A stretch of DNA of 64,000 bases from Arabidopsis thaliana (Eukaryota; Streptophyta; Magnoliopsida; Brassicales; Brassicaceae): NCBI RefSeq assembly GCF_000001735.4, contig NC_003075.7, positions 1,613,001 through 1,677,000 of the forward strand, read 5' to 3'. The first letter of the stretch is position 1, and the number at the start of each line of letters is the position of its first letter. A program made the position numbers and the translations under genes. Below the pieces are notes generated by a model. It did not search any database. It was not told the DNA's origin and was given only the letters and a program-made list of their open reading frames with translations. This document shows, in pieces, positions 785 through 29,349 of this stretch.

Positions 785-2245
785 TAAACTCTAAAGATAT
801 AGGGCATAGGGATTTTTGAAGGCGAGGCATTTGGTGTAAAACATGTGGTAACTAGAAAATTCTTGAGCCATATGAATGAAAACAGGGGACTTATCTAGTC
901 GAACAGAAGAAAGAGTTTCCCTTGAAAAAACAGCGGCTTTGCTTCCTCCGTTCCCTGATTTTCAGATGCCTGACACGTAGCTGCTAATATACTAATCTTA
1001 GTTTTTGAGGACGGTGTAGATATGTTAAAGGCTTGGATTCAATCATGACTAAAACATTACCTGTATGTGAAATTAACCAAATGTTGATGACGAGGCTGGA
1101 CGGCAAATTGATTTCCCCTAATATGGTCAAGGCACTTGGTGGTCGCCAGTAATGTCTAGTAGGGGCCATTTATCGAAGATGGGTACATTTGCCTTTCTCG
1201 CAGATAATTTTGGGCATTCTGTATTATCAACTCGAATAGTACTGAAAGTGGTGTAAAAGTAGCAATATAAATAAGAAATTTGAAGTAAACCAGAAAACTA
1301 GGATCGAACCTCGCAAATGGGAACAGACTTGAGATAGTGATAGAATGGGAACCCTAATACTCTGGAACACTAAAGAGGGGTGGGGAGATGGGTTACTGGC
1401 GGCATATGTGGTGGGCCATACAAAATAAAAAAAATTAGACATGGCAATAAGTATATGTAAATCATGTGTGTCCAAATTATCATATCCAAAGTTATATATC
1501 TGCATGGTATATACCATATAGACTTCTAGAACATGTATTGTTACAAGCAATTCATGTGGAACTCATTTATTGGGGATTCGGTTCTAGAATTTTGTTTTTG
1601 CTTTGGTAAACATGTGAAGAGACTAGGTTATACATACATAGACTGAACTCATTAAACACCAACAACAATGTTAGATTGATAAGACTTAGGAAATATAAAA
1701 ATGTAGATGGAATAGCAAACAAGAATTTCACATAACAAAGACAGAACAGTAGACGCAGAAATGCAAAAGATACAAGTTTTAGAAAATATAAACATGTAGA
1801 TGGACAGATAATGATGGACAACACATTACGAACACCTTTTCTTTCAATATTTGGGACGATTGGTTCCTTTGTGTGCTCGGGATTTGCAACAAGAGCAACG
1901 TGGACTACTCTCTCGCGGACGTGGCTGAGCCCAGTAAGCCCCATCGATTTGTACCCATCCTCTTTCTTCTCCATAAGTCTCCATCCATAAACTAGCTCCA
2001 TCCATGTGGATTGTTGGCCTTAAGACACTTTGTAAAGAAATGATAATAGATGGAGTGCGACATTGACCACCACATAAAATACCGAGATCTGTCCAGGCAG
2101 ACACAACTAATTGAATTGTTTTTGACAAAAAAAAAAGTTTGCAGTTTTACTAGAGGTTATAATCGTGTCGATGGGAAATTTTACCGCTATAAAACAGTTT
2201 TTCAATTTTCCGGAGGGAACTCAATTCAGAAACGGGGTAATGTGA
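785..2245. other. AT-rich flank left of the Helitron, no supported gene
   Basis: Several short open frames occur on the minus strand. None has a recognisable domain or a consistent exon structure. A minus-strand stretch near 1850-2000 includes a Cys-rich CSCCKSRAHKG phrase that recalls a zinc knuckle but is too short to assign. A segment near 1222-1265 (tatcaactcgaatagtact and following) recurs in diverged form near 22650-22700, to the right of the Helitron. Confidence 0.4.
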
Positions 2246-2324
2246 TCTACTATATTATTTGAGACGTACACTTAATGAGGTGGGCATGAAGTTTTCAGGA
2301 ATAACAAGTTTGCCATTGGGTTAA

Positions 2325-2690
2325 AATTTTATGTCATGAAAAACCCGTTTAGAAACGCGCAGATCCTTTTGACCCGGATTTTAAAATAATGGGTAATAAC
2401 TTCTAATCTTGGCCATTCAATTGAATTGTTTTTAGCCGTTCGGTTTCGTAGTTTCACTTAAAAAAACACGCAGATTATTTTACCCGGTTTTAAGAATTCG
2501 GGTACTCGCGTTTAATCTTGGCCATTGAATTGAATTGTTTTTAGCATTTTGATTTCATATTTCACATAAAAACACGCGGTTCTTTTTATCCCGTTTAAAA
2601 AAATCGGATTCTCGCGTGTAATCCTGGCCATTGAATAGATTTATTACTAGCCATACGATTTTTTAGTTTCACGCAAAAAATCTTCCGACT
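2325..2690 (+). repeat. Helitron 5' subterminal tandem repeat, about 107-bp unit, 3-4 diverged copies
   Basis: Each unit contains aaacacgc or acgcgcaga, then a tttacccg-type block, then tctcgcgt or taactt, then aatcttggccattgaattgaattg and ttttagc. Copies start near 2325, 2432 and 2540, with a partial fourth from about 2645. The repeats lie just inside the Helitron 5' end and before the first gene, where they may contain its promoter region. Confidence 0.65.
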
Positions 2691-5157
2691 ATATTTCAGG
2701 CAACGAATCGCATTAATTTCATTTAATTCATTGCGTATATTTGTTTCCAGCTTTCAAATATATCACTTCTCCATAATTATACATCTAATATTTCGTTTGG
2801 ATCTTCATTTAGAATTATCATAAATTTTCCACAAGTATTCCATATATATACATAACCACTTTTACGGTAAATGCTAAACATTTTCCTATAATTATGGGAT
2901 TTGTGATATGGAATAAACTTGAATTCCACGAATAATATCTTCTGCGCATATGTTTTTGACCTAAGCATTTATTCTTATAAATATCAGACGCCTCATGTCA
3001 ATCTACTCACTCATCTTCACCTCATACATTCATTTCTAAAATCTCTCAAGCCTTACAAGAACGCTTGGCGTATTCAGGTTAAATTGCTTCATGTTTGGAG
3101 GCAATATTTTGTAAAGGCTGGTGAATCCATCGAAATGATTTTGGTTGATGAAGTCGTACGTATTATATTTTTAACATTATATTTTGTCCAGCCTTATAGT
3201 GTGGGCAAGCATCATTTTCACTTATTAATGTAGATTTTTAATTCATATAGGGTGATAAGATGAGTGCTGCTGTGAGAAGAGAGCAGATCAAGAAGTTTAA
3301 AAGGTGCTTAACTGAGGGTGTTTGGAAAATCATTACGACCGTCACTCTAAATCCTACAAGTGGCCAGTATCCTATTTCTGACTTGAAATACAAGATTGGT
3401 TTTGTTTTCAAAACCACGGTCTCTCCATGTGATAGCGTCTCTGATGCTTTGTTTCTCTCCCTTGCTAAATTTGACGTGATCCTCTCCGGATCCGCTAACC
3501 CAAATATCTTGCACGGTTAGATTAAAGTTTACATTTTAATTTTGAACATACATGCCTTATCTCTTCCATAGTCAATATTTTCATAGGTTGTTGATCGCTC
3601 TGAAATCCAAGATCTTAACGCTAACAACAAGCCCACCAAAAAAATCGATTTCCATTTGAGAGATCAGCAGTACCAACAATCTATATTCATATTCCTTCTT
3701 AATTAAATATTTCCTATTTAGTTACTATTTACTAATAAATTTCTTCTTTCCATTTAAGTGACACTCGCTTGGCATGTACACTTTGGCGAAAGTATGCTGA
3801 GATCGTTGACCAAGCTTGCCAGAAGTCAACCGATGGTATTGTTGTTTGCTTAATCCGATATGCGAAGATCAATCTCTACAACGGTAATTATATTGATATG
3901 TACTACTACATATATATATATATATTTTTTAAAACATGTCCTTTTATTTATACGCAGATAATAGGAGTGTTTCTAATTCTTTTGATGTTTCACAAGTCTT
4001 CGTTGATTCCACATTGGCTGAGTTGAGTCTTTTTAAGGAAAGGTAACTGTATTTCTATTTCACTAAATATATTTGCTTCTTTATAATATTAAGCGAAGTA
4101 AATTACCAACCGATGGGTTAAATTTGGGAAGTTCGGGATCATCCCACAAGAGACTCTATGCTCCAAGAACTGGGGATGACGATGGAGATTATCCAAGGCA
4201 AACAATCAAAGAAGTCCTTACAGTTACTGATGTACTATTTATGAATTTATTTTATCTACTAACCTTTCTATTATTTTTTATTTATTTTATTTTAAACTTA
4301 GTTTGTGAAATCCTCATTATATTCATTTGAAGGTGGATAAGTGCAAAATAGTTTGTACTGTTTCGGACATTGATACGGATTTGTGGTACTATTTTTGTTA
4401 TCGTGCTCACAACAAGAAGGTTGTCAAAGAGGAAGTTATCAAACTTGAACATGTCAAGACACCTCAAAAGCCATGATTTTGGTGTGGCATATGCAATGGT
4501 TTTGCAAAAACTGTTCTTGAAAAGTGAGTCTTTATGAAAGCTTTATATTGAATGTATTTTGAATAATAATTCGGTGTTTAAAAGATAATAATCCTATTTA
4601 TATTTTAGGTTTTGGTTACATCTCCATATTATGGACCAAACCGGCGAAGCTAGATGCATGTTATTTGATAGTCATGTAAATGATATTCTTGGCACCACTG
4701 TCCCTGAATTGCTTAATGGTTTATTTGATGAGGTATATTGCCTTTTAAAAAATAAACTCTTTGATTAAAATGACTACGTTCATGTTACAATAATCTATAT
4801 TTTTCTGTAGATCGAAGACCCAACTGATTTGCCTGATGTGATCAATGGTTTGAAAGGGAAGCTTTTCCAGTTTCTATTATGTATGCAAAGGGAAAACATA
4901 TTTGGTGGATATGATTCATTTACTGTTGCCATATTCTACACCGGTAACATTGATGATGATATCGTATTTGAAGACTCGGATGCATACGTTGATCCATCAT
5001 CCATAGTTTCCATCGATCAGGTTTGTCTCATAACATTAAACAATTCCAATCATTTATATTTATATTTTATGGTTGTCTTATTAAAATATGTTTTGTATTT
5101 TCATATAGGGTTCCCTTATGCTCACTAATAGAGTAGATCTTTCTGATGTGGATTTGT

Positions 5158-6310
5158 TGTAACGCCCGTGAACCGGAAAATCGGTTAGGGTTTGTTTTTA
5201 AATCATCCGGTTTAATTGGTTGGCTTAATTGGAAACCCTAGAGTGTGCCTATAAAAGAAGGAAACTCGAAATTAGGGCTTTAGTTAGCCACTTTTCATTT
5301 TGTAAAGGAGAAAAAGAGAGAAAAGAAGAAGGAGCAGAATCGTTAGGGTTTGAGAGAAATCAGTTTCGTCATATCAAATTGTGGTAAAAGGTAACGAAAT
5401 TTGGTAGAGTTATTCCCAAGTCCTTTATCGTTATTCTCCAGTTAACAAATTGGATTTGGATTAAAATTGGTTGAGTTATTCGCAGTTTCGTGAGACACGT
5501 TTTCTCAGACGCGAATTAGGACCAGCGGAGATTGAAACTGAGATCGTGGTCTTGTCTGTTTTCCGATCGGCACGAGATTTTGTGGGCAGCTTTGTGACGT
5601 CTGCAGCTAGGATTTCACCGGAGAGATTGAATAGTTAACGGTTAGCTTGTATTTTAGGGTTTCGTATTTGAGACTGCTTGTTTCTGGTTTTTCCTGTCCA
5701 GTTTGCTTCAAGGTTGCTTTTGGTTGTGGACTTGTTGTAGGACGTTTCTGGACTGTTTCAGACGCAAGGAGAGTCTCTCCTGGGTTTAATTGCTATTAGA
5801 ATCAATTTGTTAAGGTGAGTGCGTGACCATGAGCTTATCTGAGCGATTGGGTTGTGTGATTTGTTTTGTGTGATGATATGTAGGTGTGGAGAATGTGTTT
5901 TGGGTGAATTGTTCAATGACTGGTTTGTTTGTATTGTATTCGTGATTATACCTTTGTATATGCTTGTGTGTATAGCTCGTAGATGGGAGGATCGCCTCAC
6001 TAAGTATTTATGATAATACTTACGCATCTCATTGTGTTGTTGATGCAGGTAAAGATAAAGTGTGATCGTGGAATCATGGCAAGGAAGAGAGGATGATCTA
6101 GGAACTCGTTTGTTTTATTTTGGTGTTTTTGGTTATTGGAACCCGGTTAGGATTGTTAGTTATTCTTGGTTTTGTTGGTCAAATTATTTATTTATTCATA
6201 AAATAGTATTTTTGACTTGCGGTTTAATTGTTATTTTATTGGTTGGTTTAATTAGATATTTATGGGAATATTTAATTATATTTTTTTTAAAAATGGGTCG
6301 GGTTGTTTCA
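5158..6310 (+). repeat. 5' LTR of the Tekay-like element (1153 bp)
   Basis: Begins TGTAACGCCC and ends GTTTCA. It holds a TATA-like box (tataaaa, 5250-5256). A near full-length second copy exists as a solo LTR on the minus strand at 31088-32246, which confirms the LTR limits. The last 257 bp are repeated at 11151-11408. Confidence 0.9.
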
Positions 6311-6313
6311 ATT

Positions 6314-6325
6314 TGGTATCAGAGC
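6314..6325 (+). promoter_or_regulatory. primer-binding site, initiator Met-tRNA type
   Basis: TGGTATCAGAGC lies 3 bp after the 5' LTR. It is the standard plant retrotransposon primer site, complementary to the 3' end of initiator methionine tRNA. Confidence 0.9.
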
Positions 6326-6562
6326 TATTACGGTTCTAGGATGTGTAGAAAAATTAATTGATGAATTATTTTCCTGATGATTAATGTGGGATGAGCTAGG
6401 GTGTTAGCATATTGAGGATTGATTATGGAGTGTTTAGTCAATTGTGTGTTGTTGGAGTCCTAGCATCATCTTCTCCGAGCCTGAAATGAGATTCCACGGT
6501 AAGTTGTTTGTGATATATTCGTTTGTTTTAGTTTCTTAGCCATTTGTTCTTGAGTAGCGCAG

Positions 6563-7940
6563 ATGGTTAGAGGAGCTGGAGTTCGTGGTCGTGGTCGTGG
6601 TCGTGGTCGCGGTAGGGGACGAGTCCTCAAGGGTACCGGCGAGAGTGATGGCCACAGTGCCACAGTTGAGCAGAGTGTGGGTTCGCAGCCTGAGTTTGTG
6701 GAGCCCGGGGTTAGGAACGGTCTTGGTGCCGATATAGCTGGTGCAGCCGGAGTGGGGGCTGGTGGAGCTGGTGTCGGTACCGGTGTGCATGCCGTTGGTG
6801 CTGAGGGCCCAGGAGTGATGGGTGCCGCAGCCGGAGGAGCCCAGGTTCCAGAGGTTGGTTTCGCGGGCCTGTTCAGGCAGTTGTTGGAGCGGTTACCAGG
6901 TGTGGTACCAGTGCAGGCTCCAGTTGCGCCACGAGTGGTGGAGGTGCAGCAGAGGGCTGCGGTTGCTGAGGAGGTTCCATCTTATTTGAGGATGATGAAA
7001 CAGTTGCAGAGGATTGGCACCGAGTATTTTTCTGGTGGTACTAGTCCTGAGGAGGCCGACAGTTGGAGGTCGCAGGTTGAGCGGAACTTCGGTTCGAGCA
7101 GATGTCCGGCGGAGTATCGGGTGGATCTAACAGTGCATTTTCTAGAGGGGGATGCACATTTGTGGTGGCGGAGTGTGACTGCCAGGAGGAGGCAGGCGGA
7201 TATGTCTTGGGCAGATTTCATGGCTGAGTTTAATGCCAAGTACTTTCCGCGGGAGGCGCTCGATCGTATGGAGGCGCGTTTTCTTGAGCTGACACAGGGT
7301 GTGCGGTCGGTTCGGGAGTATGACCGGAAGTTTAATCGACTCTTGGTGTATGCGGGTCGGGGCATGGAGGATGACCAGGCCCAGATGAGGAGGTTCTTGA
7401 GGGGACTTCGACCGAATTTGAGGGTGCGGTGTAGAGTGTCGCAGTACGCCACGAAGGCGGCACTGGTGGAGACGGCTGCTGAGGTAGAGGAGGACCTTCA
7501 GAGGCAGGTGGTGGGAGTGAGTCCAGCGGTACAACCGAAGAAGACTCAGCAGCAGGTGGCACCTAGCAAGGGCGGCAAGCCTGCGCAGGGGCAGAAGAGG
7601 AAGTGGGATCATCCTTCCAGAGCTGGACAGGGTGGTCATGCATGATGTTTTTCTTGTGGGAGCCTTGACCACAAGGTGGCGGATTGCACGCAGCGAGCTG
7701 AGACGAGGAAGTGCTACCACTGTAGGGAGAGGGGACATCTCAGGCAGAATTGTCCTAAGCTGCAGCGGATGGCAGTGACAGTGGTACAGCCGGCGGTGCA
7801 GCACGGAGCGCAGGTGCAGCAGGGAGTGCAGCAGTTAGCACATATTGCAGCAGCACCGCAGGGTTACATTACGCGTGAGATAGGCGGTACCAGCAACAGA
7901 GCGATTACTGGTATGATTTCTGAGACTCAAACTTTGTGAA
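6563..7940 (+). pseudogene. gag region of the Tekay-like element
   Basis: The region opens with a Gly/Arg-rich basic head (GRGRGRGRGRGR), then a Gly/Ala/Val-rich stretch. It continues into the retrotransposon gag domain, recognisable by GDAHLWWRSV, FMAEFNAKYFPREALDRMEARFLEL and SVREYDRKFNRL. A CCHC zinc knuckle follows (CYHCRERGHLRQNC, near 7712-7755). Gag forms the particle shell and binds RNA. This is part of the broken fossil element at 5158-11408. The G+C content is clearly above the surrounding AT-rich DNA. Confidence 0.88.
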
Positions 7941-7989
7941 TTGTTTATGTTGTGTTGGATATCATTGTTTTGTGATGAATGTTAGGGTT

Positions 7990-10900
7990 CTTAGCACATG
8001 AGGTTTGTGTAGGGACCTTATTAGTGGGCGGTGTAGAGGCCCATGTGTTGTTTGACTCTGGAGCATTGCATTGCTTCATTACCCCCGGAGAGTGCCTCGC
8101 GCGGCAACATCCGTGGGGATCCTGGTGAGCAACTTGGAGCCGTCAAGGTTGCTGGAGGACAGTTTCTAGCGGTTCTGGGGGGAGCGAAGGGTGTAGATAT
8201 TCAGATTGCAGGGGAGTCATTGCCAGCAGATTTGATTATCAGCCATGTAGAGTTGTATGATGTTATTCTGGGAATGGATTGGTTGGATCATTACAGAGTA
8301 CATCTTGACTGCCACCGTGGGAGAGTTTCTTTTGAGCGGCCAGAGGGAAGGTTGGTTTATCAGGGAGTGAGACCTACCTCAGGGAGTCTCGTCATCTCAG
8401 CAGTGCAGGCAGAGAAAATGATCGAGAAGGGCTGCGAGGCTTACCTGGTGACGATATCTATGCCGGAGTCTGTGGGCAGGTAGCAGTGAGCGACATTCGG
8501 GTTGTTCAGGAGTTTCAGTATGTGTTTCAATCGTTGCAGGGATTACCACCATCACGGTCTGATCCTTTCACGATTGAGTTGGAACCAAAGACAGCGCCAT
8601 TGTCTAAGGCACCCTACAGGATGGCTCCAGCAAAGATGGCAGAGCTAAAGAAGCAGCTAGAGGATTTATTGGGTAAGAGATTCATTCGTCCTAGTACTTC
8701 ACCTTGGGGAGCGCCGGTGTTATTTGTGAAGAAGAAGGACGGGAGTTTCCGCTTATGTATTGACTACCGGGGTTGAACCGGGTCACTGTGAAGAACAAGT
8801 ACCCTTTGCCAAGGATTGATGAGTTGTTGGATCAGTTGAGGGGTGCTACTTGTTTCTCCAAAATCGATTTGACGTCGGGTTATCATCAGATCCCGATAGC
8901 GGAGGCAGATGTTCGCAAGACTGCTTTCAGGACGAGATATGGACATTTTGAGTTCGTGGTGATGCCTTTCGGGTTGACTAATGCACCTGCAGCGTTCATG
9001 AGGTTGATGAACAGCGTGTTCCAGGAGTTTTTGGATGAGTTTGTGATCATCTTTATTGATGACATTCTGGTGTATTCTAAGAGTCCTGAGGAGCATGAGG
9101 TACATCTAAGGAGAGTGATGGAGAAGCTACGGGAGCAGAAGTTGTTCGCTAAGTTGAGTAAGTGCAGTTTCTGGCAGAGAGAGATGGGTTTTCTGGGTCA
9201 CATTGTTTCTGCAGAGGGAGTTTCAGTGGATCCAGAGAAAATTGAGGCTATCAGAGATTGGCCTAGACCGACGAATGCCACTGAGATCAGGAGTTTTCTT
9301 GGGTTGGCAGGGTATTACAGGAGGTTCATCAAGGGGTTTGCGAGTATGGCACAGCCGATGACTAAGCTGACGGGGAAGGATGTTCCTTTTGTGTGGTCAC
9401 CGGAGTGCGAGGAGGGTTTCGTGAGCCTGAAGGAGATGTTGACGAGTACACCAGTGTTAGCATTGCCAGAGCATGGAGAGCCTTACATGGTGTATACTGA
9501 TGCCTCGGGAGTTGGTTTGGGTTGTGCTCTAATGCAGCGTGGGAAGGTTATTGCCTATGCATCACGGCAGTTGAGGAAGCATGAGGGCAACTATCCTACT
9601 CACGATTTGGAGATGGCTGCAGTAATCTTTGCCTTGAAAATTTGGAGGTCTTATCTTTATGGCGGGAAAGTGCAGGTGTTCACGGATCATAAGAGTTTGA
9701 AGTATATTTTCACTCAGCCAGAGCTGAACCTGAGGCAGAGGCGATGGATGGAGTTGGTGGCTGATTATGATCTAGAGATAGCTTACCACTTGGTAAGGCT
9801 AATGTGGTTGCAGACGCGTTGAGCCGTAAGCGCGTGGGCGCGGCTCCAGGGCAGAGTGTTGAGGCCTTGGTGAGTGAGATTGGTGCTTTGCAGTTGTGTG
9901 CTGTGGCACGAGAGCCATTGGGATTGGAAGCTGTGGATCGAGCAGATCTTCTGACTAGAGTTCGGTTGGCTCAGGAGAAGGATGAGGGGTTGATTGCGGC
10001 TTTTAAGGCAGAGGGCTCTGAGTATCAGTTTGCAGCTAATGGGACTATCCTTGTGCATGGGCGAGTTTGTGTGCCTAAGGATGAGGAGTTGCGACGGGAG
10101 ATCTTGAGTGAGGCTCATGCGAGCATGTTTTCCATTCATCCAGGAGCGACTAAGATGTACCGAGACCTCAAGCGGTACTATCACTGGGTCAGAATGAAGA
10201 GGGATGTAGCTAATTGGGTTGCAGAGTGCAAAGTTTGCCAGTTAGTTAAGGCTAAGCATCAGGTGCCAGGTGACCTGTTGCAGAGTTTACCCATTCCTGA
10301 GTGGAAGTGGGATTTCATCACGATGGATTTTGTGGTTGGGTTGCCTGTGTCGCGAACCAAAGATGCTATTTGGGTGATCGTGGACCGTCTGACTAAGTCA
10401 GCACATTTTCAAGCCATCAGAAAAACCGATGGAGCGGCGGTGTTTGCTAAGAAATATGTGAGCGAGATCGTGAAGTTGCATGGAGTACCTGTGAGTATTG
10501 TGTCAGACAGGGATTCCAAGTTTACTTCTGCATTTTGGAGAGCCTTTCAGGCAGAGATGGGTACTAAGGTACAGATGAGCACGACTTATCATCCACAGAC
10601 AGATGGGCAATCTGAGAGGACTATTTAGACGCTTGAGGATATGTTGCGGATGTGTGTCTTGGATTGGGGAGGTCATTGGGCGGATCACTTGAGTCTGGTA
10701 GAGTTTGCTTATAACAATAGCTATCAGGCGAGTATTGGGATGGCTCCTTTTGAAGCGTTGTATGGGAGGCCATGCAGGACACCGTTATGCTGGACCCAAG
10801 TGGGGGAGAGGAGCATATATGGTGCAGATTATGTTCAGGAGACCACGGAGAGGATCCGGGTTGTTAAGCTGAACATGAAGGAAGCTCAGGATCGACAGCG

Positions 10901-11150
10901 GAGTTATGCTGACAAGAGGAGGAGAGAGCTTGAGTTTGAGGTTGGGGACAAAGTGTATCTTAAGATGGCCATGTTGCGAGGTCCGGACAGGTCTATCTCA
11001 GAGACTAAGTTGAGTCTGAGGTACATGGGTCCGTTCAGGATTGTTGAGAGGGTGGGACCAGTGGCATACAGGTTAGAGTTGCCTGATGTTATGCGTGCGT
11101 TTCACAAGGTCTTTCATGTGTCGATGCTGAGGAAGTGTCTTCACAAGGAT
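7990..11150 (+). pseudogene. pol region (protease, RT, RNase H, integrase) of the Tekay-like element
   Basis: Domains in order. Protease is near 8020-8440 (LFDSGALH-type active site and VILGMDWLDHY). Reverse transcriptase is near 8490-9300 ([33 protein letters not shown], and the catalytic FIDDIL). RNase H is near 9480-9780 ([16 protein letters not shown]). Integrase is near 9860-11130, with the HHCC zinc finger (HPGATKMYRDLKRYYHW, CKVC), core residues in DFITMDFVVGLP and IVSDRDSKFTS, and a C-terminal GPFRIVERVG block ending in FHKVFHVSMLRKCL. These proteins copy and insert the element. Chromovirus elements normally carry a chromodomain after this block, and it is not seen here. Broken fossil. 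Confidence 0.9.
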
Positions 11151-11408
11151 GATAAAGTGTGATCGTGAAATCATGGCAAGGAAGAGAGGATGATCTAGGA
11201 ACTCGTTTGTTTTATTTTGGTGTTTTTGGTTATTGGAACCCGGTTAGGATTGTTAGTTATTCTTGGTTTTGTTGGTCGAATTATTTATTTATTCATAAAA
11301 TAGTATTTTTGACTTGCGGTTTAATTGTTATTTTATTGGTTGGTTTAATTAGATATTTATGGGAATATTTAATTATATTTATAAAAAAAAATGGGTCGGG
11401 TTGTTTCA
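11151..11408 (+). repeat. 3' LTR remnant of the Tekay-like element (258 bp of about 1150)
   Basis: Matches positions 6054-6310 of the 5' LTR with about 99 percent identity, and ends TTGTTTCA directly before the target duplication TTTGT. Only the last quarter of an LTR is present. The junction with pol falls at the phrase gataaagtgtgatcgtg, which also occurs in the 5' LTR. Confidence 0.9.
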
Positions 11409-11538
11409 TTTGTCATCAACCTCTACTCCATCATCAAAACGAAAAGATTCAGATGATGTTGTTGGAAATGATCAGGCTTCCACAAGTAAGAAGAAGTGTT
11501 CTAAGATGACCATGTCTGAGGAAGACTCCGGCGAATGA

Positions 11539-12142
11539 TGCTTAATGACTACTCCATCTTGGATCGTTTTCTTCATTAATATTTCTTTGCTTTAAGTTAT
11601 CGAAGTTGTTTTCATTTTTTAAGTTCTAAACTATCTTTATTTTATTTGTTGTTTTGGAATTAAAAAAATTTCTTTCATTTATGTCGATTTGTTAAACAAT
11701 TTTATTAACTTAGTTATATTTATGATTAAGAAACACATTCTTTTATATTACAATGTCAATCTTACTGAGAATATAAACATTTTTGCTCATTATGACCAAA
11801 AAACCCAATAAAATCAGAATTATCATAAATTTTGGATACTAAAAAATCAGTCCTATTAAATAAGACAAATCTTGAGAATCTTGAAAAACAAAGCTATTCC
11901 GTTTTTTCCATAGATTCTCATTTAAATAATTACAAGTTTTAAAAATACCCTAACAAATAAATGTCATCATTATTGTTCTAACCTATAAGAAATTCTATTG
12001 GTTGTGGACGATTCGGTTTTCTTTTTACACATCAATTGTCCATCATTGTATCTTTTCACAATTATATAAAATCAAAACCCCCAAATAAAATCATTAGGTT
12101 AAACTCTTATCTTTCAAAAAAAAAAAACTTCCTCTCTAAAAC
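11539..12142 (+). other. AT-rich spacer between Helitron genes
   Basis: Follows the stop of the RPA1-like gene and precedes the next DUF223-like start. It is very AT-rich, with no frame of note. It probably holds the 3' untranslated part of the first gene and the upstream region of the next (an A-run precedes the ATG at 12143). Confidence 0.5.
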
Positions 12143-12885
12143 ATGATGTCTGTTCACAAACTTACCAATTTGAGGGATAAGTCGACTAACTGGAAGATTA
12201 ACGTGAAGTTCCTGTCAATCTGTAATCATCCTCCAAAGAGTCATGGTGAAATTACGACCATGATTCTTCACGATGAAAAGGTTTGGAATTTTGGATTGTT
12301 CATTCTTTTAATCCAAATTTACTTTGTTACTATTGAAATAGATACTTTTAAATTATTTAATCGTTGAGTTATTTGGAAATAATTTCAGTGTGATCGAGTA
12401 GATGCAACAATACCTCAAGGAAACTATCAGTATCTTTTCCGACCGTTTCTCAAACCTGGCTCATGGTCTCACATCTCTGACTTTCGGGTCGTGGTTCCTT
12501 AAGAAAGGGTTAGGTATTCTTCGTTTCGTTTCCACATCAAGTTTATTTGGGAATCAAGTGTTTTGCCTCTTCTGGAACTGGTGAAAAGAGACTTTTTTGA
12601 TTTTATTTTTCCCATAGACCTCAAGTATCCGTGTCTTGAGGATTGGGAATATGTCACGGGTAAGTTTTTAGTCAATATATGTTCTTATCATTTTAAGATT
12701 AAAATTTTATTAGTAGTTTATGTTCTTATTTTTTTGAACTACTCTATTAACATCTAATTCTATACTTAGATGCAAGGGGTGTGGTGTCAAATATCTCGGC
12801 TATTAAGAAATTTCCATTTGTTTGTCGCCAATGTGAAACCGACTATAAATCGAGATATGTCTCGTTCAACCTTTTGGACAATATG
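12143..12885 (+). pseudogene. DUF223-like OB-fold gene, shortened (Helitron cargo gene 2)
   Basis: The first block, 12143-12280, starts MMSVHKLTNLRDKSTNWKI and contains VKFLSICNHP and TTMILHDEK, the pattern of the first OB strand set in plant RPA/DUF223 proteins. Later blocks are near 12390-12500 (GNYQYLFRPFLKPGSW), 12570-12660 and 12770-12885 (DARGVVSNISAIKKFPFVCRQC). Introns of 70-110 bp, AT-rich with GT-AG-like ends, separate them. Frame changes within the second block and the lack of a third OB fold suggest a decayed gene. Predicted role is single-stranded nucleic-acid binding. It lies 0.6 kb after the RPA1-like gene on the same strand. Confidence 0.6.
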
Positions 12886-13484
12886 TAAGTTTTAGTGTTT
12901 ATAAGTATATCAAAGTCATATCATTATTTTTATGACTTAAAAAGAATCAATACATATATAACTGTTAAAGTTAACTTCTGTTAAATGTAATATATATAGG
13001 ATTTCAGTCTATTATATATATATTGTGCTCTTATACATATTTTGAGGAATAATTATGTACTTTAATTGAGTAGATAAAAATATTGACTTCTATATTGAAT
13101 TCAATTTATTTATATATCTTCCTTTCTCAATGAATTATATTGTTGACAACTTTTTTTACCATCTTTTCCAAGATTGATAACAAGATTTGACAACTCATCC
13201 AAGAGATATGACAACTTATGTCACATTTTATTACATACAAAATTCATTAATTTTCGCAAGTAACCATAAAAAGCATACCATCGAGATTCCAAATTCGATT
13301 GACAAGATTTGCATGGCATATAAATTTTTGTAATAAATTAATATAAACTAAATATTCAAAATTATACACATACACATATCCTAACCCATAAACCGAAAAA
13401 AGTAATCTCCTCCCTTCTTTATTTCCATTACTTGCCTTCTTCATCTTTCTTCTAACCTATTAACTTGAAAAAAAAAAAAAAAAC
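12886..13484 (+). other. AT-rich spacer between two DUF223-like genes
   Basis: No coding signal. It contains TA-rich runs (tatatatata) and poly-A (13469-13484) directly before the next ATG at 13485. Confidence 0.5.
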
Positions 13485-14799
13485 ATGTCGAGATATGATA
13501 GAGGTGGTTACTACAAAGGAATCTCTTACCTCTCTTAAATTTCGCCAAAAAAGAAAGAGTGGAAAGTGTTTGTCAAGATACTAAGTTGGTGGGTATCACT
13601 TCCTCATGAGGGTTGGAAGACACACCGCATGATCTTGTGCGACGAGATTGTAAGTCTAAATTAATTAGTATTCATTAGATCTAATCTATTAATATTTCAT
13701 AAGTTAAACGTTTTTTTAGGGGACAATGATTGATGCCATTGCTCCTTCTTATGTCTTTGAACATGACATCCCTAGAGTTCTCGAAGAAGGTAGTTGGTTT
13801 TTCATGGAAGACATTCATGTCATCAAAGCATCCGTCGGATCTCCTCCCTTTACCGATCATAAGTTCAAAATCAAGTTTCTTGAGTACACCAAACTATCTC
13901 ATGTGGGTAGATTGGTTCCAAATAACTTTTTCCGATTTGCTTCCTTCTCCATGATCGAAAACAAGACTTTCTTATTTAGATTTTTAAAAAATAAGCAGTC
14001 TGTTTATTTGGAAATATAAAGCTTTCATGTTTTCCTTTATTTTTTGTAGATGCTTATGGTGTTGTCGTGAGAGTTGAGAATATAACAAGACCGGATTATG
14101 TTCCTCAAGATTCCAAAAATCCTAGACTTTCTCAATTTCTCGAGTTTGAGCTCAAAAATACTTGGTTAGTATTTCCGACTATATAGTTCCGCATCTATTT
14201 GGTTCTATATTTTAATGTAGGAACATAGTAAATATTGTTATCTTTATAGGTGGCTTAATTCATAGAACTTAGATGTTTGTGAGAAATAATTTTGATATTC
14301 TTATTAGGGGACAATCTCTGACATGTGTTGCAACTGGATATACTTGTGATTTGTTTGTGCGTTTGTGGAGGGAACTTGGTCTAGACCTTGGTTATGAGTG
14401 GACCTTCGGTATGAATACTACAACATGTGTGCTTCGATTTTGGAAGGTTGCTGATCATGAAGGTAAATTTAACACTCTTCTCATCCTATCTTTAATTTAT
14501 ATAGCTAATGCATATAATAAAAACATAAATATTTTAGGTTGTTAATGTCTAATCTCACATAATGCTGCTTCTAAGAAATATATTCAATCAAAGTTACCTA
14601 GAGATTAACATGGATCACATCACGTAAGAACGTTTTAGTGTATTACAAAATATTTTACTCTTGGCTGTTTATTTCTTTTTTGTTTTCCTATTGTTTCAGG
14701 GCTCAATTTCTTGAACGAATGCAACCAGCTGAGCTAGGTGAAGTTGTTGATGAGAACTTAAGACATCAAGACCAGACCCATTTCCATCGTTTTTATTAA
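13485..14799 (+). pseudogene. DUF223-like OB-fold gene (Helitron cargo gene 3)
   Basis: Starts MSRYDRGGYYKGISYLS. Next comes a block with EWKVFVKILSWWVSLPHEGW and MILCDEI (about 13560-13650), then 13720-13960 (MIDAIAPSYVFEHDIPRVLEEGSW), 14050-14165 (DAYGVVVRVENITRPDYVPQD), 14273-14462 (LTCVATGYTCDLFVRLW and CVLRFWKVADHEG) and a last block 14700-14799 (AQFLERMQPAELGEVVDEN) with a TAA stop. This is three OB-fold-like parts in the usual order, with AT-rich introns. An in-frame stop early in the gene and another before the third fold make it likely inactive. The third-fold block is closely matched on the minus strand at 28770-28970. The inferred role is single-stranded DNA or RNA binding. Confidence 0.65.
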
Positions 14800-15476
14800 A
14801 TCTTCTCTATTATGCTTTAAAAAATGTATTGTTAAGACTTTGTTTTTGTTTTTATTTCATTTCCTATGCATGATTTCTGTAAAATATTAACTTTGATTAT
14901 GCTTCGTTTTATTTAATGCTTACTAAATCACTATAGTTCTGTAAACTTAGATAAAATTTTAACTATTTTGATATTGTTATTCTTATTAATAATTTTGATT
15001 TAAATTATGTAGATATTTTGTTGATTGTAACACAATGTATTTGAAATCAAACTTTTGATTTCAAATTTAAACTAAAATATGAGTTAGATATGCATGTATT
15101 AAACAAAGAAAATAAATATGCAAAACTTAGAGTTTATTAAAATATTTGTCCAGTGGAATATGCCATTAAAACGTTAGAGAATCTTTTAAGTTGGAAACAT
15201 CCATGATTTCAACTATGAGTTTCTTAATCAAGCATCCTATGATTTGTGTTACAATTTGCACAATAATAGAGTAGATAAACTAAATTAGTATATACATTTC
15301 GTATGTTGCGCCATAATAAAATTATATTGTAGATATTTTTGTTAACATTATATTTTCATATATATTGTTTCCTAATTTTAAGCATTGTTATGTTTATTAT
15401 ATTATTTGGTTTGTGAAACATTTAGCCTTTCTACTCAAACCAAATTAATATTCTTTGTTTATGTTCGTCGTTTACA
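14800..15476 (+). other. AT-rich spacer before the Helitron Rep-helicase gene
   Basis: No gene seen. The sequence is strongly AT-rich with short T-runs. It presumably contains the 3' end of the DUF223-like gene and the promoter of the next gene. Confidence 0.5.
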
Positions 15477-18400
15477 ATGAAGAAAAGAAAAGATAATGAT
15501 GTAGATCAACAACAAAAAAATCAGAAAACCTCAAAACGAACAAGACGTTTGTTCGATGAAACCAACTTTCCTTCGCAAAATCAAACACTTGGATCGAAAA
15601 ATTTAGTTGCTGCCAGTTCTGTGTTTGGTAGAGTGCTTAGTGACATTACAATGTCTACCTTACAAAAAGAAGTCAGACTCCTCATACTCCTGTGTCCTTA
15701 CCTCTTTACTCTGGAAATAATAATGGGAGTTCCTCACTCATTAGACCTATTAATTCGATGAACTCAACTCTTACATGTAGTATGCTCATATATTCTTTTG
15801 ACTTTATTTTGATTCATATATTTTTGCACTTCAAAGAAGACAGAGTAATTTATAATACACCAAACAGAAGAGGAAATATAGTCAATGGATCTAATAGCTC
15901 AGAAGTGTTTAATCCAACTCTTCCAAGAGCTGCCGCAAAAAAAAAGGAAATCAGGTTAGTAACTTATATACTATTGAATATGCAATATTATCATACAAAT
16001 TTTAAATATAAGAATATTATTTTTTTATATGTCATGTGTTGATATTTATATTTTTTATTGCAGGAAATTTATATTTTTTACTGCAGGAAATTTATCCAAT
16101 ACTAAAAAGATATCATTATCACTTCGAGAGAAGACCAATGATAAAGCAACCAACAATTATGATATTGTTAACAAAATATCTATTCGAAGGTTGTCTGCTG
16201 TTAAAAGAATGACCAGAAAAATATCAAACGCTTCAGGTTAAGTATAATTTTTTTTTTATTAGATACAATACATATTAGTTTAATATTTTTATTTATCTTT
16301 ATTTGGTTGTTGTTTTTCTCAGTAGGATCACCAGACTTCTTAACTCCTAATCAAACTACCCTAAACGTAAATACATTGTTTGGAGTAGATGACTCTGAAA
16401 ATTTCTTATCGGATATAACATATAGATCGGAAAGTACTAGGAGAGGATGCAACGTCTCTACCATTAGATTAATGTCGAATAAGAAGAAAAAAGTTTCAAA
16501 TGGGCAAGGTTCGATTTATATTTGAAAATTAGCTATTTATATTATGTTTTAGTATGTTTGTCTAATTTCTAATAGTTTAACAGAAATTATATCATTACTT
16601 CCTTAAAAAAATTTAATATTTTGGTTTGTTGATTGTTAGGAGTCCCACATTCAACAAAATTACAGTCAAAAAGAGAATTTTGCAAGTATTTTACGTGCCA
16701 ATATGCTCAATGACGAAGAAATTGATCATTCTGAAGCAATATATTCTGATAGTGGTATAATGTTAATCATACTTTTTAAAATTGCAACTTTATATAATTA
16801 GTGTAAAATTGATTAATTTGTGCTACTTTCATGTCATATCTTGTCTACAGATAGGCCACATGAATTTGATGATCATATATTTGACTGTAGTAGTCAAGAA
16901 GAGTATGAGTCGGACAAAGATTCACCGAGCGATTAGGTTGTTGGACCAAAATATATTTTCGACATGAAAGATTTGTTAAGAAGGAATTTAAACAAGGAAT
17001 TTACTGCTAGCTTCAAACAAAGACGATGCCAGTTCATCCACTAGCGGTAATAATTTTAAAGCATATGTTATATATATTAGAACTAAGGAAAAACTTATCT
17101 AACATTTTATCGACTAACTTTGGTATCAATGTTTGTTCGATTCATGCGATTCATGTTATCATGACGAAAGTGATGCGAATCACACATGTGTGCATTGTGG
17201 TGCAATTTTCTGGTATGGTGAAAGACTAAATAGAAGAAGGAGGAGTAGCAATCCGGTTTTTACAGGATGTTGTATGCAAGGACAGATTGTTCTACCTATG
17301 TTAAAAGAATCACCTGAATATATGTGGTGGTTGCTTACAGGCGACCATGAAGATGCTAAAAATTTTAGAGCAAATATCAGACCATAAAACATGTTGTTTT
17401 CATTCACATCTATTGGGGGCAAGGTAGATCGCTAAGTAAGAAAGGGACGTGGTCCATCTATGTTTGCTCTACAAGGAGAAAACTATCACTTGATAGGCGC
17501 GTTGAAACCAAAATCTTGTGATTATGCAAAATTCTAGCAGCTTCATATCATGGACACTGAGAATGAAATTGATAATCGAATTGAAGTTATAAGGTAAGTG
17601 TTAACTTCAATTGAACTTTGTGAAATTATATTTTGTGGCAGCTAATATATTTTGTTTATTATATGTCTTTTGTAATTATCCAAAATTGTATCAAAGGTAA
17701 TAATGGTGGGACGGAAGGTGGGAAACAAAGTTCAAGAAAGAAACAGTTGCAGCTTTGCTAAAAATGTTGGACAAGATAAACCCTCATGTTGGTGCATTTA
17801 GGATTGCCCGTGATAGATTCAACATGGAGAAAATAGGCAAATTTTCATATGAGGATTATATCTCATCGCGAGAAAGATGGGAGAGTGTATAACCTTCCAT
17901 CTGTAGCTGAACTTGCTGCATTGATACTTGGAGATTTCGACGACAATCTATATAAAAGAGATATAGTCCTATAGATTAAGTCTGGAAAGTTAAGGAGAAT
18001 ACATGAATGTCACGTTTCATATCTAGCTCTTCAGTATCCATTGTTATTTCCAAAATGAGAGGATGGGTATAAGCTTGGAATAAAAAAAACTCCTACCAAA
18101 ACAACAAAAGGAAAGAAAAAGCAGGAAGATGTTAGTATGAGGCAGTGGTTTGACTACCGTTTACAAGAGAGAAAATATGAGAAGCACATCCTCCTTCACT
18201 CAAAGCGTTTACTTCAACAATTCATGGTTGCGCTTTTACTATGATAGAGTCTAATCGGCTAAGGTATGTAAAAAAAAAAAAACGAAGTTTTGCAGTACCA
18301 ATAAGCAGGCAGTTCAAGATGCTTCTGATGCTCGAGATAATGATCTTTCTAATAAAGGAAAAAATTGTATCATTCCTCCATCTTTCACTCGTGGTCCAAC

Positions 18401-21400
18401 TTATATGCAACATAACTACTTAGATGCAATGACGACCTGTAAACATTTCTGCTTTCTCGACCTGTTTATAACCTTCACATTTAATCCTAAGTGGCGAGAG
18501 ATCACAAGATTTGTTAAAGAGCGAAATTTGAATGCTGAGGACATGTCGGATGTCATTTGCAGGATTTATAAATGAAACTCGACAACTTGATGGATGATCT
18601 AACAAAAAATCATCTCTTTGGAAAAACCAAATCAGGTACGAAATGATTTCATGTTTTTTAAACATATATTTCATGAATTTTAATTTACAAGTGACATTAA
18701 CTCATAATTGTTATGTCGAAACAACTATGTATACAGTAGGATTTCAAAAAAGAGGTCTTCCACATGCTCACATCATTCTTTGGATGGATCCTAGATACAA
18801 GTTTCCTACAGTTGATGACGTTGACAAGATTATCTTTGCCGAAATTCTAGATAAAGTAAAAGATTCAGAGCTATATCAAGTTGTGTCGGAATGTATGATT
18901 CATGGACCATGCGGATTGGTTAATCCTAATTCGCCATGCATGGAAAATGGTAAATATTCCAAGTTTTATCCAAAGAACCATGTTGAGAACACGTCTCTTG
19001 ACAATGAAAGTTATCCAATATATAGACGCAGAGATACTGGTCGTTTCGTCGAGAAGAATAAGTTTCAATCTGACAACCGGTATGTTGTTCCATACAATGA
19101 TGTCTTGTTACGGAAATACATGGCTCACATCAATGTAGAGTGGTGTAACCAATCCGTCTCTGTTAAATACGTATTCAAGTATGTTAACAAGGGACCTGAT
19201 CGTGTAACCGTCTCTGTCGAGCCTCATTGAAAAGAAGATGTCACCGAGCAAAACAATGTAGGAGAAACAAATAAAGATCCACAAGAACGAAATCAAGTTC
19301 AGGATTATTTTGATTGCAGGTATTTTTCATTATTTTATTTCAGTTTATTGTAGACATACTTAGGAGACTATTTTTAAGAAGAGTCTTAATGAAAAATAAC
19401 TCAAATATCGTTTTACAAATACGTATCTGCATGTGAAGCGATGTGGAGGATTAAAGGCTATCCTATACATTATCGACAAACATCAGTAACTAAACTTACG
19501 TTCCATGAGAAAGGCAAGCAACCTGTTTATGTCAAGGAAGGTGAGACTGCTGAATCTGTTTTGTATAGAGTGAATAATGATGAGACTCAGTTTACCGCAT
19601 GATTCGAGCTTAATAAGCGTGATCCGGAAGCAGCAAAACTTTTATATGAACAAATACCTAATTTCTATACGTGGAATGGTAAAGATAAGGAGTTTCGCAG
19701 AAGGTTGATGCCAAGTTTTGTTGTTGGTAGAATAAATTATGTACCTCCAAAGATAGATGATGCATATCACCTTCGCATTCTGATTTGTTCATATAAATTA
19801 TGTCGAGGGTGTTGTTCATGAATCATACAGAGATGCATGCTAATATGTTATGCTCTAGGTTTGCTTGATGATGATAAGGAATATATCCACGGTATTGAGG
19901 AGGCTAATTTTTGGTGTTCTCCTAAGTATGTTTGCAAGTTGTTTGTTATTATGCTTATTTCCGAAAGATTGAGTTCCCCAGCCGTTGTATGGGAACACAC
20001 TTGGAAGATACTGTCTGAAGATTTTAAGAGGAAACTAAGAAATCAGTTAGAACGTGCAGGTTAGTTAAATTATTATTTTTAAATTAAATATACAATTTTA
20101 TAGATGTTTTTATAAATATTTTAGTACATTCAATCTTATATTAATTTATATGCAGAATATATATTGCCTGACGAAGACAGGATTCAGTTATGTTTACAAG
20201 AGCTGCAAAAAATATTAAAAAGGCATGGAACAGATCTTTGGAGGTATAAGATGTTGCCTCAGCTTGAACCAGGCGATGAACCTGCCTTTAATCAGTTGAT
20301 CCTCGATGAGCGCAACTACAATTGTGAGTCATTGAAAACAAAACATGATAATTGGTTAAAGATGCTAACTGCTGAACAGAAGAAGGTATATGATGGAATA
20401 ATGGATGTTGTCCTTAATGACAAATGAGGTGTTTTTTTCTTATATGGATTTGGAGGAACATGAAAAAACTTTTTGTGGAAGGTTCTATCCTCATCGATAA
20501 GATCTAAAGGAGATATTTGTTTAAATGTTGCATCAAGCGGCATTGCATCTCTGTTATTAGAAGGGTGGCCGAACTGCACATTCTAGGTTTGGTATTCCTC
20601 TAACTCCTCATGAGACCTCAACATGCAACATAGAACGTGGTATTGATCTTGCTGAACTAGTAACAGCAGCTAAGTTGATCATTTGGGATGAAGCTCCTAT
20701 GATGAGTAAGTATTGTTTTAAGTCATTAGATAAGAGATTAAGAGATATTATATCGACTCCAGAAGATAAGCCGTTGGGTGGAAAAGTTATTCTTTTCGGA
20801 GGTGATTTTAGGCAAATTCTTCATGTCATCGTTGCAGCCGGTAGGGAACTGATTGTCAAATCATCACTCAATTCGTCTTATCATTAGCAGCATTGCAAAG
20901 TTTTGAAGTTGACGAAGAACATGAGGCTTCTCCAAGATATAGACATAAGTGAGGCACGTGAGATTGAGGAATTTTCGAAATGGATCCTTGCAGTCGGCGA
21001 GGGAAAACTAAATGAGCCTAACGACGGAGTAACTCCGATACAAATACCAGATGATATTCTTATTTTTGAAGGAGACAACCCTATAGAATCGATCATTAAA
21101 TGTGTCTATGGTACAATCTTTGCTCAAGAGAAATCTCTAACGTTTTTCCAAGACAGAGCTATTTTGTGTCCCACCAATGATGATGTTAACTTAATTAACG
21201 ATCATATGCTTTCAAAGCTAACAAGTTAGTGAATTAACTTTGGAGATTACTCAAAAGTATACATATAACTTTATATGTTGTTACTTATAAGTGTATATGA
21301 CAGTGAACTACTACTCTTTTCAAGTGAAGAAAGGATTTATCGAAGTTCTGATTCTATTGATCCTTCTGACACACGTGCAGATAATAACCCCGTATATACG

Positions 21401-21900
21401 CCTGATTTTTTCAATAAAATCAAGCTTTCTGGATTACCTAATCATTTACTTCGATTAAAGTTGGTTGCCTAGTTATGTTGTTGCGTAATCTTGATCTGCA
21501 TGGAGGTTTGATGAATGGTACAAGACTCCAGATTGTCAGACTTGGAGATAAACTGGTGCAAGGACGTCCATTAACAGGTACTAGAGTTGGTAAACTGGTC
21601 CTTATTCTCATGATGCCCCTAACTCCTTCGGCTCATAGATTGCCCTTTAAAATGCGACGGAAGCAGTTTCCTTTATCTGTTGCATTTGCTATGATGATCA
21701 ATAAGAGCCAACGCCAGTCATTAGCCAATGTTGGCATAAATTTGCTGAAGCCTGTTTTCTCACATGGACAGTTGTATGTCGCTATGTCTAGAGTGAAATC
21801 AAAGGCAAGGCTGAAGGTTCTTATTACAGACAGTAAAGGAAAACAGAAGAAAGAAACAACAAATGTTATTTTCAAAGAAATATTCCAAAACCTTTTGTAG
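15477..21900 (+). pseudogene. Helitron Rep-helicase (RepHel) gene, degenerate
   Basis: N-terminal Ser/Thr/Asn-rich blocks (15477-16530) are followed by a zinc-finger block (17133-17387: HTCVHCGAIFWYGER, NPVFTGCC). Next is Helitron_like_N (about 17860-18650: TCKHFCFLDLFITFTFNP). The Rep nuclease has the HUH motif PHAHIIL at 18760-18780, and two tyrosines four residues apart in [10 protein letters not shown] (codons at 19168 and 19180). The helicase is PIF1-type, near 20160-21900: Walker A YGFGGT, Walker B IIWDEAPM, GGDFRQ, LTKNMRL, and the last motif NKSQRQSL with GQLYVAMSRV. The Walker A glycine codon is replaced by TGA at 20461, and more stops and frameshifts follow, so the gene is dead. In a live Helitron this protein nicks, unwinds and transfers the strand. 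Confidence 0.9.
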
Positions 21901-22434
21901 ATTAATTATACAGGTATCATTTATTTAATTTGATTATTATAAAATAAATATCATTGTACAAAATTATATAACATGCTAACTTAGTCGTTTTTAAATTTGC
22001 AGATTGGAATAATTATTAAAAGCCTTTCGTTTTGCCATTTTCTTAATGTTTATTTTTTTTAATACCAGTGGAGAAGTATGTAATCTATTAATATATATAG
22101 TTTTTTTTTATATAATTATGAGTTTGAAGTTTGAACAAAGACATTTTCCAAGTATTAAATTGTCAAATTTTATAATTAATTTACATGTTAATGACATACA
22201 CAAAATTGTACAAATACTATGTGTACACCTACATATACTAAATATACAATTACGTACCCAAACATACATACCAATACTATACTAAATTTTCCATACTACA
22301 AACCGAGGAAACTACATATACTAAACAAAATATGGTTTGAGGAGACTAAATATATTTAGTTGATACCAATAGTACATGATATACAACTACATATTTATAT
22401 ACAACTACATATTTACATACAAATACCAAGGATA

Positions 22435-22461
22435 CCGTGTGTAACACGGGTACTGACCTAG
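22435..22461 (+). terminator. Helitron 3' end hairpin and CTAG terminus
   Basis: The stem is ccgtgt / acacgg with a gta loop (22435-22449), then gtactgac and the terminal CTAG (22458-22461), followed by T. This is the replication/transposition stop signal of Helitrons. The stem is perfectly paired although the coding part has decayed. Confidence 0.85.
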
Positions 22462-23316: not shown

Positions 23317-24060
23317 ATGCTCAAGTTAACGAAGGTCGACAAGAATGAAGCACCATCCCTTTCAGGTGTCAAAAAGGTTGTTCAGCGTAACCTAATCTTG
23401 ATATTCAACATAAACAAAAACCAATCGTCTGCTTCTGTTTGTGTTTTCCCTCAGGTTGCTGTTAGCCCAGAAATTCACATCCAGGCACCAGTACTTGCTA
23501 AAAATTGTTAGATATGTTGTTGAAGATGGCGTTGATTCTTTAAAAAATATGGTGAAGGATGGTCCGATATTTAAGGCGGCTGTGTATTCCAAGGAAACCC
23601 TAAGTTGTTGCCGACTTGACACATCTCGTTATTTCATGTAGTGGTCCATGAAGAACTCCATCTATTACCATTTCTTTACAAAATGTCTTGAAGCCAACAA
23701 TCCTCATGCTTTGAATGCGGTATTGTACAAACCAATAGCATATGAGAATTTTGCTGCCGAATGCTATAGAGCTAGCTTATGGGCGGCTGTGTATTCCAAA
23801 GAAACCCTAAGTTGTTACCGACTTGACACATCTCGTTATTTCATGTGGTTGTCCATGACGCACTCCATCTATTACCATTTCTTTACAAAATGTCTTGAAG
23901 CCAACAATTCTCATGCTTTGAATGCGGTATTGTACAAACCAATAGCATATGAGAATTTTGCTGCCGAATGCTATAGAGCTAGCTTATGGGCGGCTGTGTA
24001 TTCCAAAGAAACCCTAAGTTGTTGCCGACTTGACACATCTCGTTATTTCAAAGAAGAATC
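23317..24060 (+). pseudogene. F-box gene of the At2g35280 type, degenerate, with internal triplication
   Basis: The recognisable part reads LLKIVRYVVEDGVDSLKNM, then GPIFKAAVYSKETL, RLDTSRYFMW, YYHFFTKCLEANNPHAL. I recall this order from Brassicaceae F-box proteins related to At2g35280, which are substrate-choosing subunits of SCF ubiquitin ligases. The segment from AAVYSKETL to ECYRASLW is repeated: two full copies and the start of a third, in frame, 69 codons each. An in-frame TAG lies in the first copy (near 23639), and the usual C-terminal half of the protein is replaced by the repeats. It is probably a dead tandem-duplication derivative. The F-box proper lies in a less clear frame upstream. 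Confidence 0.55.
23573..24050 (+). repeat. 207-bp in-frame tandem repeat (2.3 copies)
   Basis: tgtgtattccaa starts at 23581, 23788 and 23995, exactly 207 bp apart. Copies differ at only a few positions. The third stops after CRLDTSRYF. Just after it, a 30-bp phrase (gaagaatcttcttgataacatctatattt) is itself duplicated at about 24052 and 24108. Confidence 0.9.
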
Positions 24061-27539: not shown

Positions 27540-28440
27540 TTGTTGAATACGGTTGTGTATTCGAAGAACTTTTTGTTTGAGTGTTAGCTCAATTGTTTTG
27601 TTTTATGAGGCCACTGTCTAAACAAAGGGTGTATATATATCAAAACACTTTCCTTTTGCCATAGTCGTTATTCAAACAGGAAAATAATATATAAATATAT
27701 TTACCAATCAGGCATAGTCAAATTATTTTTTTAAAACCCCTAAAAAAACAAAATTCAAAAGTTTTATCATGCACTCGTCCAAAATACGTGTAATTGTGAA
27801 TGACAATACACTGAAGACTTCGTTTATTGTGAACGATAATACTTTCGATATTTCCCAATCAATCATATTGTGAGTGATAAGTTTGAGACATGAATGAGAA
27901 CCATTGAGCCACGTCTTTCGCGTATTAATGTCTAAACATATCATATAGCAGATTTGGTGTGTTTTAAACATATCATACATTTCTTTTTATTTATACAGTA
28001 CATATCTAACATTATATTCAAAAATCTCAACGATCAATATTTGTATAAATATTTGTTTGTTTTTTGCTGGAATGAATATACGTACGGAAACTCTACAAAT
28101 ACAATAATATATTCTTAATATTATTTTTCATTAAGACAGTCGTTTTTCGTGAGCCGAAATAAAAAGAATAATACCAAAATAGAACATCAAAGCGAACTAC
28201 TTAGACCAATCGAAGATATATGAGTATTTGGTTCGTTAATAAATCTAAACATATAAAGGATATCAATGGTGATAAGATAATAACATCTTTAAAGCAAATC
28301 AAAACCATGAAGTCGAATGATACGATCATTGGTTTGATGACTATTTATCAAGTCAAAACAGCACATGTTTTAAAAAACATATAAGGTAACAGAATATTTT
28401 ATTACATCAAAGCACCATGCACACTTTTTCGGTAGAAAGG
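27540..28440. other. AT-rich intergenic DNA within the DUF223 array
   Basis: No supported gene. Short internal echoes (gtgaatgacaata, gtgaacgataata, gtgagtgataag within 27795-27880) suggest a small degenerate repeat. The right part holds the third, weak copy of the array's 3' flank. Confidence 0.4.
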
Positions 28441-28444
28441 CTTC

Positions 28445-29345: not shown

Positions 29346-29349
29346 TATT

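Follow-up and report, generated by a model that had tools for sequence, protein, structure and literature searches.

The first description of Helitrons in Arabidopsis thaliana is said to be that of Kapitonov and Jurka in 2001. A later review characterizes the order by TC...hairpin...CTRR ends, an A-T target, a Y2-type Rep protein, and RPA and other proteins (PMC7385966). The element analyzed here, a Helitron at positions 2246..22461 (+ strand) of a 64,000-nucleotide window of A. thaliana (C4:1613001-1677000, NC_003075.7), resembles the known A. thaliana Helitrons in its TC...hairpin...CTRR ends, its A-T target, and its combination of Y2-type Rep with RPA, and differs from them in that this copy carries three DUF223 genes, a nested Gypsy element, and a broken Rep-helicase (RepHel) gene. 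For rice Mothra, the published account describes RPA-only 'semi-autonomous' Helitrons lacking RepHel, and its authors propose that a sister family with the same ends supplies RepHel (PMC4683698). RepHel-less, RPA-bearing relatives exist here as well, but one RPA gene is described there, whereas the RepHel-less relatives of our element have four DUF223 genes, the fourth of them in the place of RepHel. Maize ZmhelB1 and ZmhelB2 likewise join RepHel and RPA1-type DNA-binding domains in one Helitron; there, a single open reading frame holds the helicase and, after it, three such domains belonging to one RPA1 motif (PMC3288121), whereas here three separate genes precede RepHel. A search of the titles and abstract openings of open-licence literature returned no RepHel-less Helitron group with four DUF223 genes, which is no proof of novelty, and a search of open-licence literature for Helitrons with RPA and DUF223 also found nothing. 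Chromosome 4 has a heterochromatic knob, hk4S, which is reported to contain Helitrons (PMC7385966). The window presumably lies within or close to it.

We read the element, with a probability of roughly 0.96, as a dead canonical plant Helitron. Its progenitor would have carried three diverged DUF223 genes (oligonucleotide/oligosaccharide-binding [OB] fold, RPA1-like) followed by RepHel. The insertion itself, into a dispersed repeat, was between an A and a T and made no target duplication, as the paralogous empty sites show. Afterwards, though in no established sequence, a Gypsy element entered gene 1, the gene 2 region lost approximately 1.15 kb, and stops and frameshifts built up in RepHel; each of these events is evident in the copy. 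The features of a canonical Helitron are all found: a 5′ TC, a 3′ CTRR, A-T insertion without target duplication, a short 3′ hairpin with six of six pairs 12 nt from the end, a Rep domain bearing the HUH and two-tyrosine motifs, and a PIF1-type helicase, the gene itself being broken. Three DUF223 domains place it among the plant Helitrons with RPA-like genes. The intact RepHel frame of an autonomous Helitron is absent, the gene having six frame changes as well as stops. The element is an ordinary member of a known Helitron kind, with a mildly interesting family.

Termini and insertion site

The 5′ terminus (start TCTACTATATTATTTGAGACGTAC, 2246..2275, + strand) is preceded by an A at 2245, and the 3′ terminus (GTACTGACCTAG, 22450..22461, + strand) ends in ...GACCTAG and is followed by a T at 22462. 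The genome searched comprises 7 contigs with 119,662,809 bases in total. Among the matches listed to positions 2200-3000, the 16 start points at query 38-54 fall at 2245 (eight), 2253 (six), 2239 (one), and 2237 (one), and the short matches listed to the last 30-37 nt (query 126-132 onward) all stop at 22461 save one at 22460. Both ends are present in 12 of 13 fetched relatives, which were selected mainly for nearby matches to both ends and form a sample biased to whole copies; the sequence of C2_3.77 was fetched short of its 3′ end. All 12 relatives with both ends have an A before TC and a T after the end (the 5′ base of C4_4.087 was read by eye), and the 3′ end is CTAG in nine and CTAA in three of them. 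The 11 relatives measured range from 2,593 to 21,588 bp. The ends and A/T flanks given in the initial annotation were therefore right, and the search for other copies sharing both ends that it had recommended came out in its favor within this selected set. Its description of a 20-kb Helitron holds for the ends and the span of 20,216 bp; the size does not hold, as the Helitron proper is about 14 kb (~13.96 kb without Gypsy and one target-duplication copy, one base adjusted) and the rest is nested Gypsy.

Inside the 5′ end lies a subterminal tandem repeat of ~106 nt × 2.6 (2404..2680, + strand), to which the relatives also give repeated matches. We found no terminal inverted repeats in a comparison of the first 20 nt with the reverse complement of the last 20 nt (2 of 20 positions agree), and the inverted repeats of at least 60 nt in window positions 1-26000 all lie outside the Helitron. 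Beyond its 3′ side, a tandem repeat at 23575-24050 (207 nt, ~2.3 copies) includes 106 nt that are inverted relative to 2003-2108, across the Helitron.

The terminal hairpin CCGTGT-GTA-ACACGG (22435..22449, + strand) stands 12 nt before the 3′ end and has a perfect 6-bp stem. All six Watson-Crick pairs are kept in 5 of 12 hairpin-bearing copies, the window included, a count that leaves out C3_12.88 and C5_10.69, which have lost the hairpin, and copies whose fetched sequence stops before the 3′ end. The initial annotation had set a perfect hairpin against decayed coding parts. Both features are present, but the contrast is not a telling sign: with 5 of 12 stems perfect, a perfect hairpin in a decayed copy is unsurprising, and the idea that it implies selection is not supported. 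Relative to the commonest stem, both sides of one pair have changed in the window, from C-G to T-A, a compensatory change that carries little weight, since it concerns a single pair of a single copy.

The insertion site was approached by searching the joined flanks (388 nt) against the genome and fetching all seven loci listed as crossing the junction. All seven paralogous loci give a BLAST alignment segment that spans the junction, with 69-71% identity; A|T stands at the junction in six of the seven alignments, and in two of them GTGA|TTA is identical to the window. That the joined flanks match paralogues across the junction places the element in a dispersed repeat, and the same paralogous empty sites show insertion between A and T without target duplication. 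The empty-site check suggested in the initial annotation was thus favorable, with paralogous loci standing in for related accessions. At least five of the seven paralogues have a DUF223 exon match no more than ~1.5 kb away, and the host repeat may therefore itself be part of another old Helitron. The three empty-site loci examined for inverted repeats of at least 30 nt had none.

Coding content and its decay

Three DUF223 genes, which we take to encode RPA-like OB folds, precede RepHel on the + strand, and with exons joined each has a domain above the Pfam cut-off of 24.6 bits, in agreement with the three OB-fold-type genes originally proposed. The 5′ part of gene 1 (3045..5157) scores 113.5 bits when 3045-3156 and 3252-3519 are joined, and the gene continues past the Gypsy element, with its 3′ side, at 11409..11718, which is 78-90% identical to relatives. 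Gene 2, which is shortened (12143..12908), reaches 49.0 bits with exons joined by eye, and gene 3 (13485..14799, start and end placed by eye) reaches 50.3 bits after exon joining and has an early in-frame stop after its ATG. Without joining, gene 1 passes as two pieces (57.9 and 33.2 bits) and gene 2 also passes (29.3 bits). In gene 1, in one relative's gene 2, and in gene 3 alike, the profile match is broken near position 43-46, as a shared intron would predict. A match to Rep_fac-A_C, the RPA C-terminal domain, in gene 1 was sub-threshold (11.9 bits against a cut-off of 28.5). Elsewhere in the window, a fragment at 28435-29349 (− strand) that is ~81% identical to the gene 3 region represents a second Helitron remnant.

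Approximately 1.15-1.2 kb of the gene 2 region is absent from the window at 12906-12908 and present in relatives, whole in C4_4.22, C5_13.50, and C2_4.03 and in part in C1_13.52. Two further loci divide it, C2_3.77 holding 2-956 of its 1151 positions and C2_3.75 holding 957-1150. Since the segment runs on from one to the other, we take these loci as putative halves of one element split by a large insert. When translated, a short part of the segment resembles gene 3 (56% across 27 residues, E 9e-5), and on this likeness the segment probably holds further gene 2 exons.

The Rep part of RepHel (16670..20061, + strand) is decayed and matches Helitron_like_N at 61.3 bits. By eye, its translation contains His-Ala-His in PHAHIILW (18763..18771) and YVFKY (Y-x3-Y; 19168..19182), which we take to be the HUH and two-tyrosine motifs. 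The PIF1-type helicase part (20093..21897, + strand) matches at 193.7 bits and is frameshifted, with a stop, located by eye, at 20461 in the Walker A stretch; Pif1_2B is also above its Pfam cut-off, and the three profiles matched in different frames. Inside stretches that are open as single frames in relatives, the window gene has six frame changes, three in 17663-18655, two in 20093-21226, and one in 21293-21894. It also has 34 in-frame stops, of which 18 lie within 16040-17084, where alignment is poor and introns are likely, and some of the other 16 may lie at piece ends. For the window and six relatives, the open frames of at least 150 aa listed in the RepHel stretches do not exceed 361 aa, a test that introns limit. 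The HUH, double-Tyr, and PIF1 motifs named in the initial annotation are thus present, by profile matches and, for the two short motifs, by eye, and the stops and frame changes bear out its decayed Rep-helicase. Nine loci, the window among them, match the Rep stretch at 91% or above, and a further group does so at 66-73%.

Gene 1 is interrupted by a 6.25-kb Gypsy-type long terminal repeat (LTR) retrotransposon (5158..11408, + strand) with gag, zinc knuckle, protease, reverse transcriptase, RNase H, and integrase matches. It begins with TG, ends with CA, and is flanked by a 5-bp target duplication, TTTGT, at 5153..5157 and 11409-11413. Its 5′ LTR spans 5158-6310, and the 3′ LTR is reduced to its sole remaining part, 11151-11408. 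The two share 258 columns with 6 mismatches and 1 gap position, and at a substitution rate of 7e-9 per site per year these very few changes would put the insertion at roughly 1.7 million years ago. A solo LTR of the same Gypsy kind, with CTATG on both sides, lies at 31088-32246. The window also holds a CACTA-type remnant with a Transposase_21 (tnp2) match at 42225-43007 and, at 60789-63538, a second retrotransposon identified by matches to reverse transcriptase, RNase H, and integrase; all three are on the − strand.

Relatives and alternative readings

The relatives differ in which modules they hold. In C2_6.06, C3_12.15, and C3_12.88, which measure 11.2-11.4 kb, gene 1 is combined with RepHel, window ~12037 being joined to ~15197 at the same sequence, and C3:14.05 is a fourth locus starting at window 15197. 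C2_4.03, C4_4.22, and C5_13.50 have DNA matching genes 1-3, after which similarity ends at ~15379 and returns at ~22185-22194; a protein search for RepHel pieces gave 0 matches in each of them, against 16 in the control C3_12.15. In the place of RepHel these three have in common ~2 kb that contains a fourth DUF223 gene (L042:3520-3899 in C5_13.50, also in L043 and L037), two exons of which are each over the cut-off, so that three OB genes, placed by the initial annotation at the high end for plant Helitrons, are not the ceiling. Within C2_4.03, an insertion (L036:2074-4268) carries a Transpos_assoc match and a long open frame that by eye is CACTA transposase-like. The fourth-gene stretch occurs at seven loci at 84% identity or above, with a DUF223 match in 7 of 7, and it is in exactly these loci that the gene-3 match stops at 15377-15379. 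Of 13 loci listed as matching the gene-3 stretch, seven stop there, two are fragments that end earlier, and four run past 15379 towards RepHel, namely the window, C2_3.75, C5_10.69, and C1_13.52 (the last to 16176). These other three rule out the window as the sole copy with gene 3 beside RepHel.

Among the seven fourth-gene loci and the nine subfamily Rep loci listed, both of which are lower bounds, there is no overlap: none of the nine RepHel loci has the fourth-gene stretch, and the nearest is ~300 kb from any fourth-gene locus. We entertain, as a doubtful proposal, that the subfamily is split into complementary, end-sharing sets, one with DUF223 genes 1-4 and no RepHel (seven loci), one with gene 1 and RepHel and no genes 2 and 3 (the four loci starting at window 15197), and rare full-length copies such as this one, with the fourth gene and RepHel mutually exclusive and movement by trans complementation in which OB proteins would be shared helpers. 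Weighing against it, a Rep match outside the subfamily (C1:13,757,760) lies ~7 kb from, and on the same strand as, a 72% match to the fourth-gene stretch (C1:13,765,543; G000, C1:13757760-13765792). This locus may be a Helitron that combines the two, and the pairing means that the exclusion is not general.

That several relatives hold only some modules, either DUF223 genes without RepHel or gene 1 with RepHel, also raises the question of whether the window contains two different Helitrons, adjoining or nested, with the 5′ end from one and the 3′ end from the other. Unrooted FastTree trees of eight modules, each including copies that cover at least 70% of the module, bear on this. The window groups with C1_13.52 and then C2_3.77 for gene 1, with C2_3.77 for gene 2, with C5_10.69 and C1_13.52 (C2_3.75 next) for gene 3, with C5_10.69 and then C2_3.75 for both the spacer and Rep, with C5_10.69 for the helicase, and with C3_13.26 and C5_10.69 for the 204-bp 3′ subterminal module. 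In the 5′ subterminal tree it groups with C1_13.52 and three short elements on a long branch, then C2_3.77 and C3_10.98. The window thus stays with one set of relatives across modules, the short elements at the 5′ end being a blemish. C3_12.15, by comparison, has different relatives in its 5′ part and its Rep part, and exchange between copies therefore seems to occur in the family. Two Helitrons are nevertheless very improbable here, given that both ends occur together in 12 of the 13 relatives and that the empty sites join exactly the window's two ends; it is the empty sites that lead us to reject a chimera, and the trees, with their 5′ caveat, add less weight. Still harder to credit is a recent tandem duplication in this copy as the source of the OB genes. 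Although the three DUF223 genes are consecutive, their DUF223 stretches are just 26-29% identical to one another, which marks them as old paralogues and led us to reject this origin, and sequence corresponding to each of the three occurs, in unchanged order, in relatives.

Several observations weigh against the reading of a single dead Helitron with three DUF223 genes. The gene 3 domain scores 14.8 bits unjoined, below the cut-off unless two exons are joined, and among relatives it reaches 21.8 bits in C5_13.50 and gave no match in those stretches of C4_4.22 and C2_4.03 that were scanned. The empty sites are paralogous loci of the same genome and not an orthologous allele from another accession, and their alignments have the low identity given above. 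One of them, L057, departs at the junction and lacks the A-T there. Relative to some paralogues the window is missing up to 29 nt, ~5 nt left of the junction, so that the left side there depends on the aligner's gap placement. Finally, the 12 of 13 copies with both ends are no rate for the whole family, since the relatives were chosen by paired end matches.

Proposed transposition and possible role of OB proteins

By analogy with other members of the family, the 5′ TC end would be nicked by the HUH/Y2 Rep domain and one strand peeled off by the PIF1-type helicase. The peeled strand would be coated by OB proteins, the 3′ hairpin may act as the stop mark, and the strand would then be joined between A and T. 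The window copy is one of the few here in which three DUF223 genes are still linked to RepHel; its use lies in the ancestral layout that it suggests for two multiplied and internally rearranged groups. With a fourth DUF223 gene found in the position of RepHel, two questions become open to test: whether proteins are shared in trans among plant Helitrons, and why these retain several diverged OB proteins.

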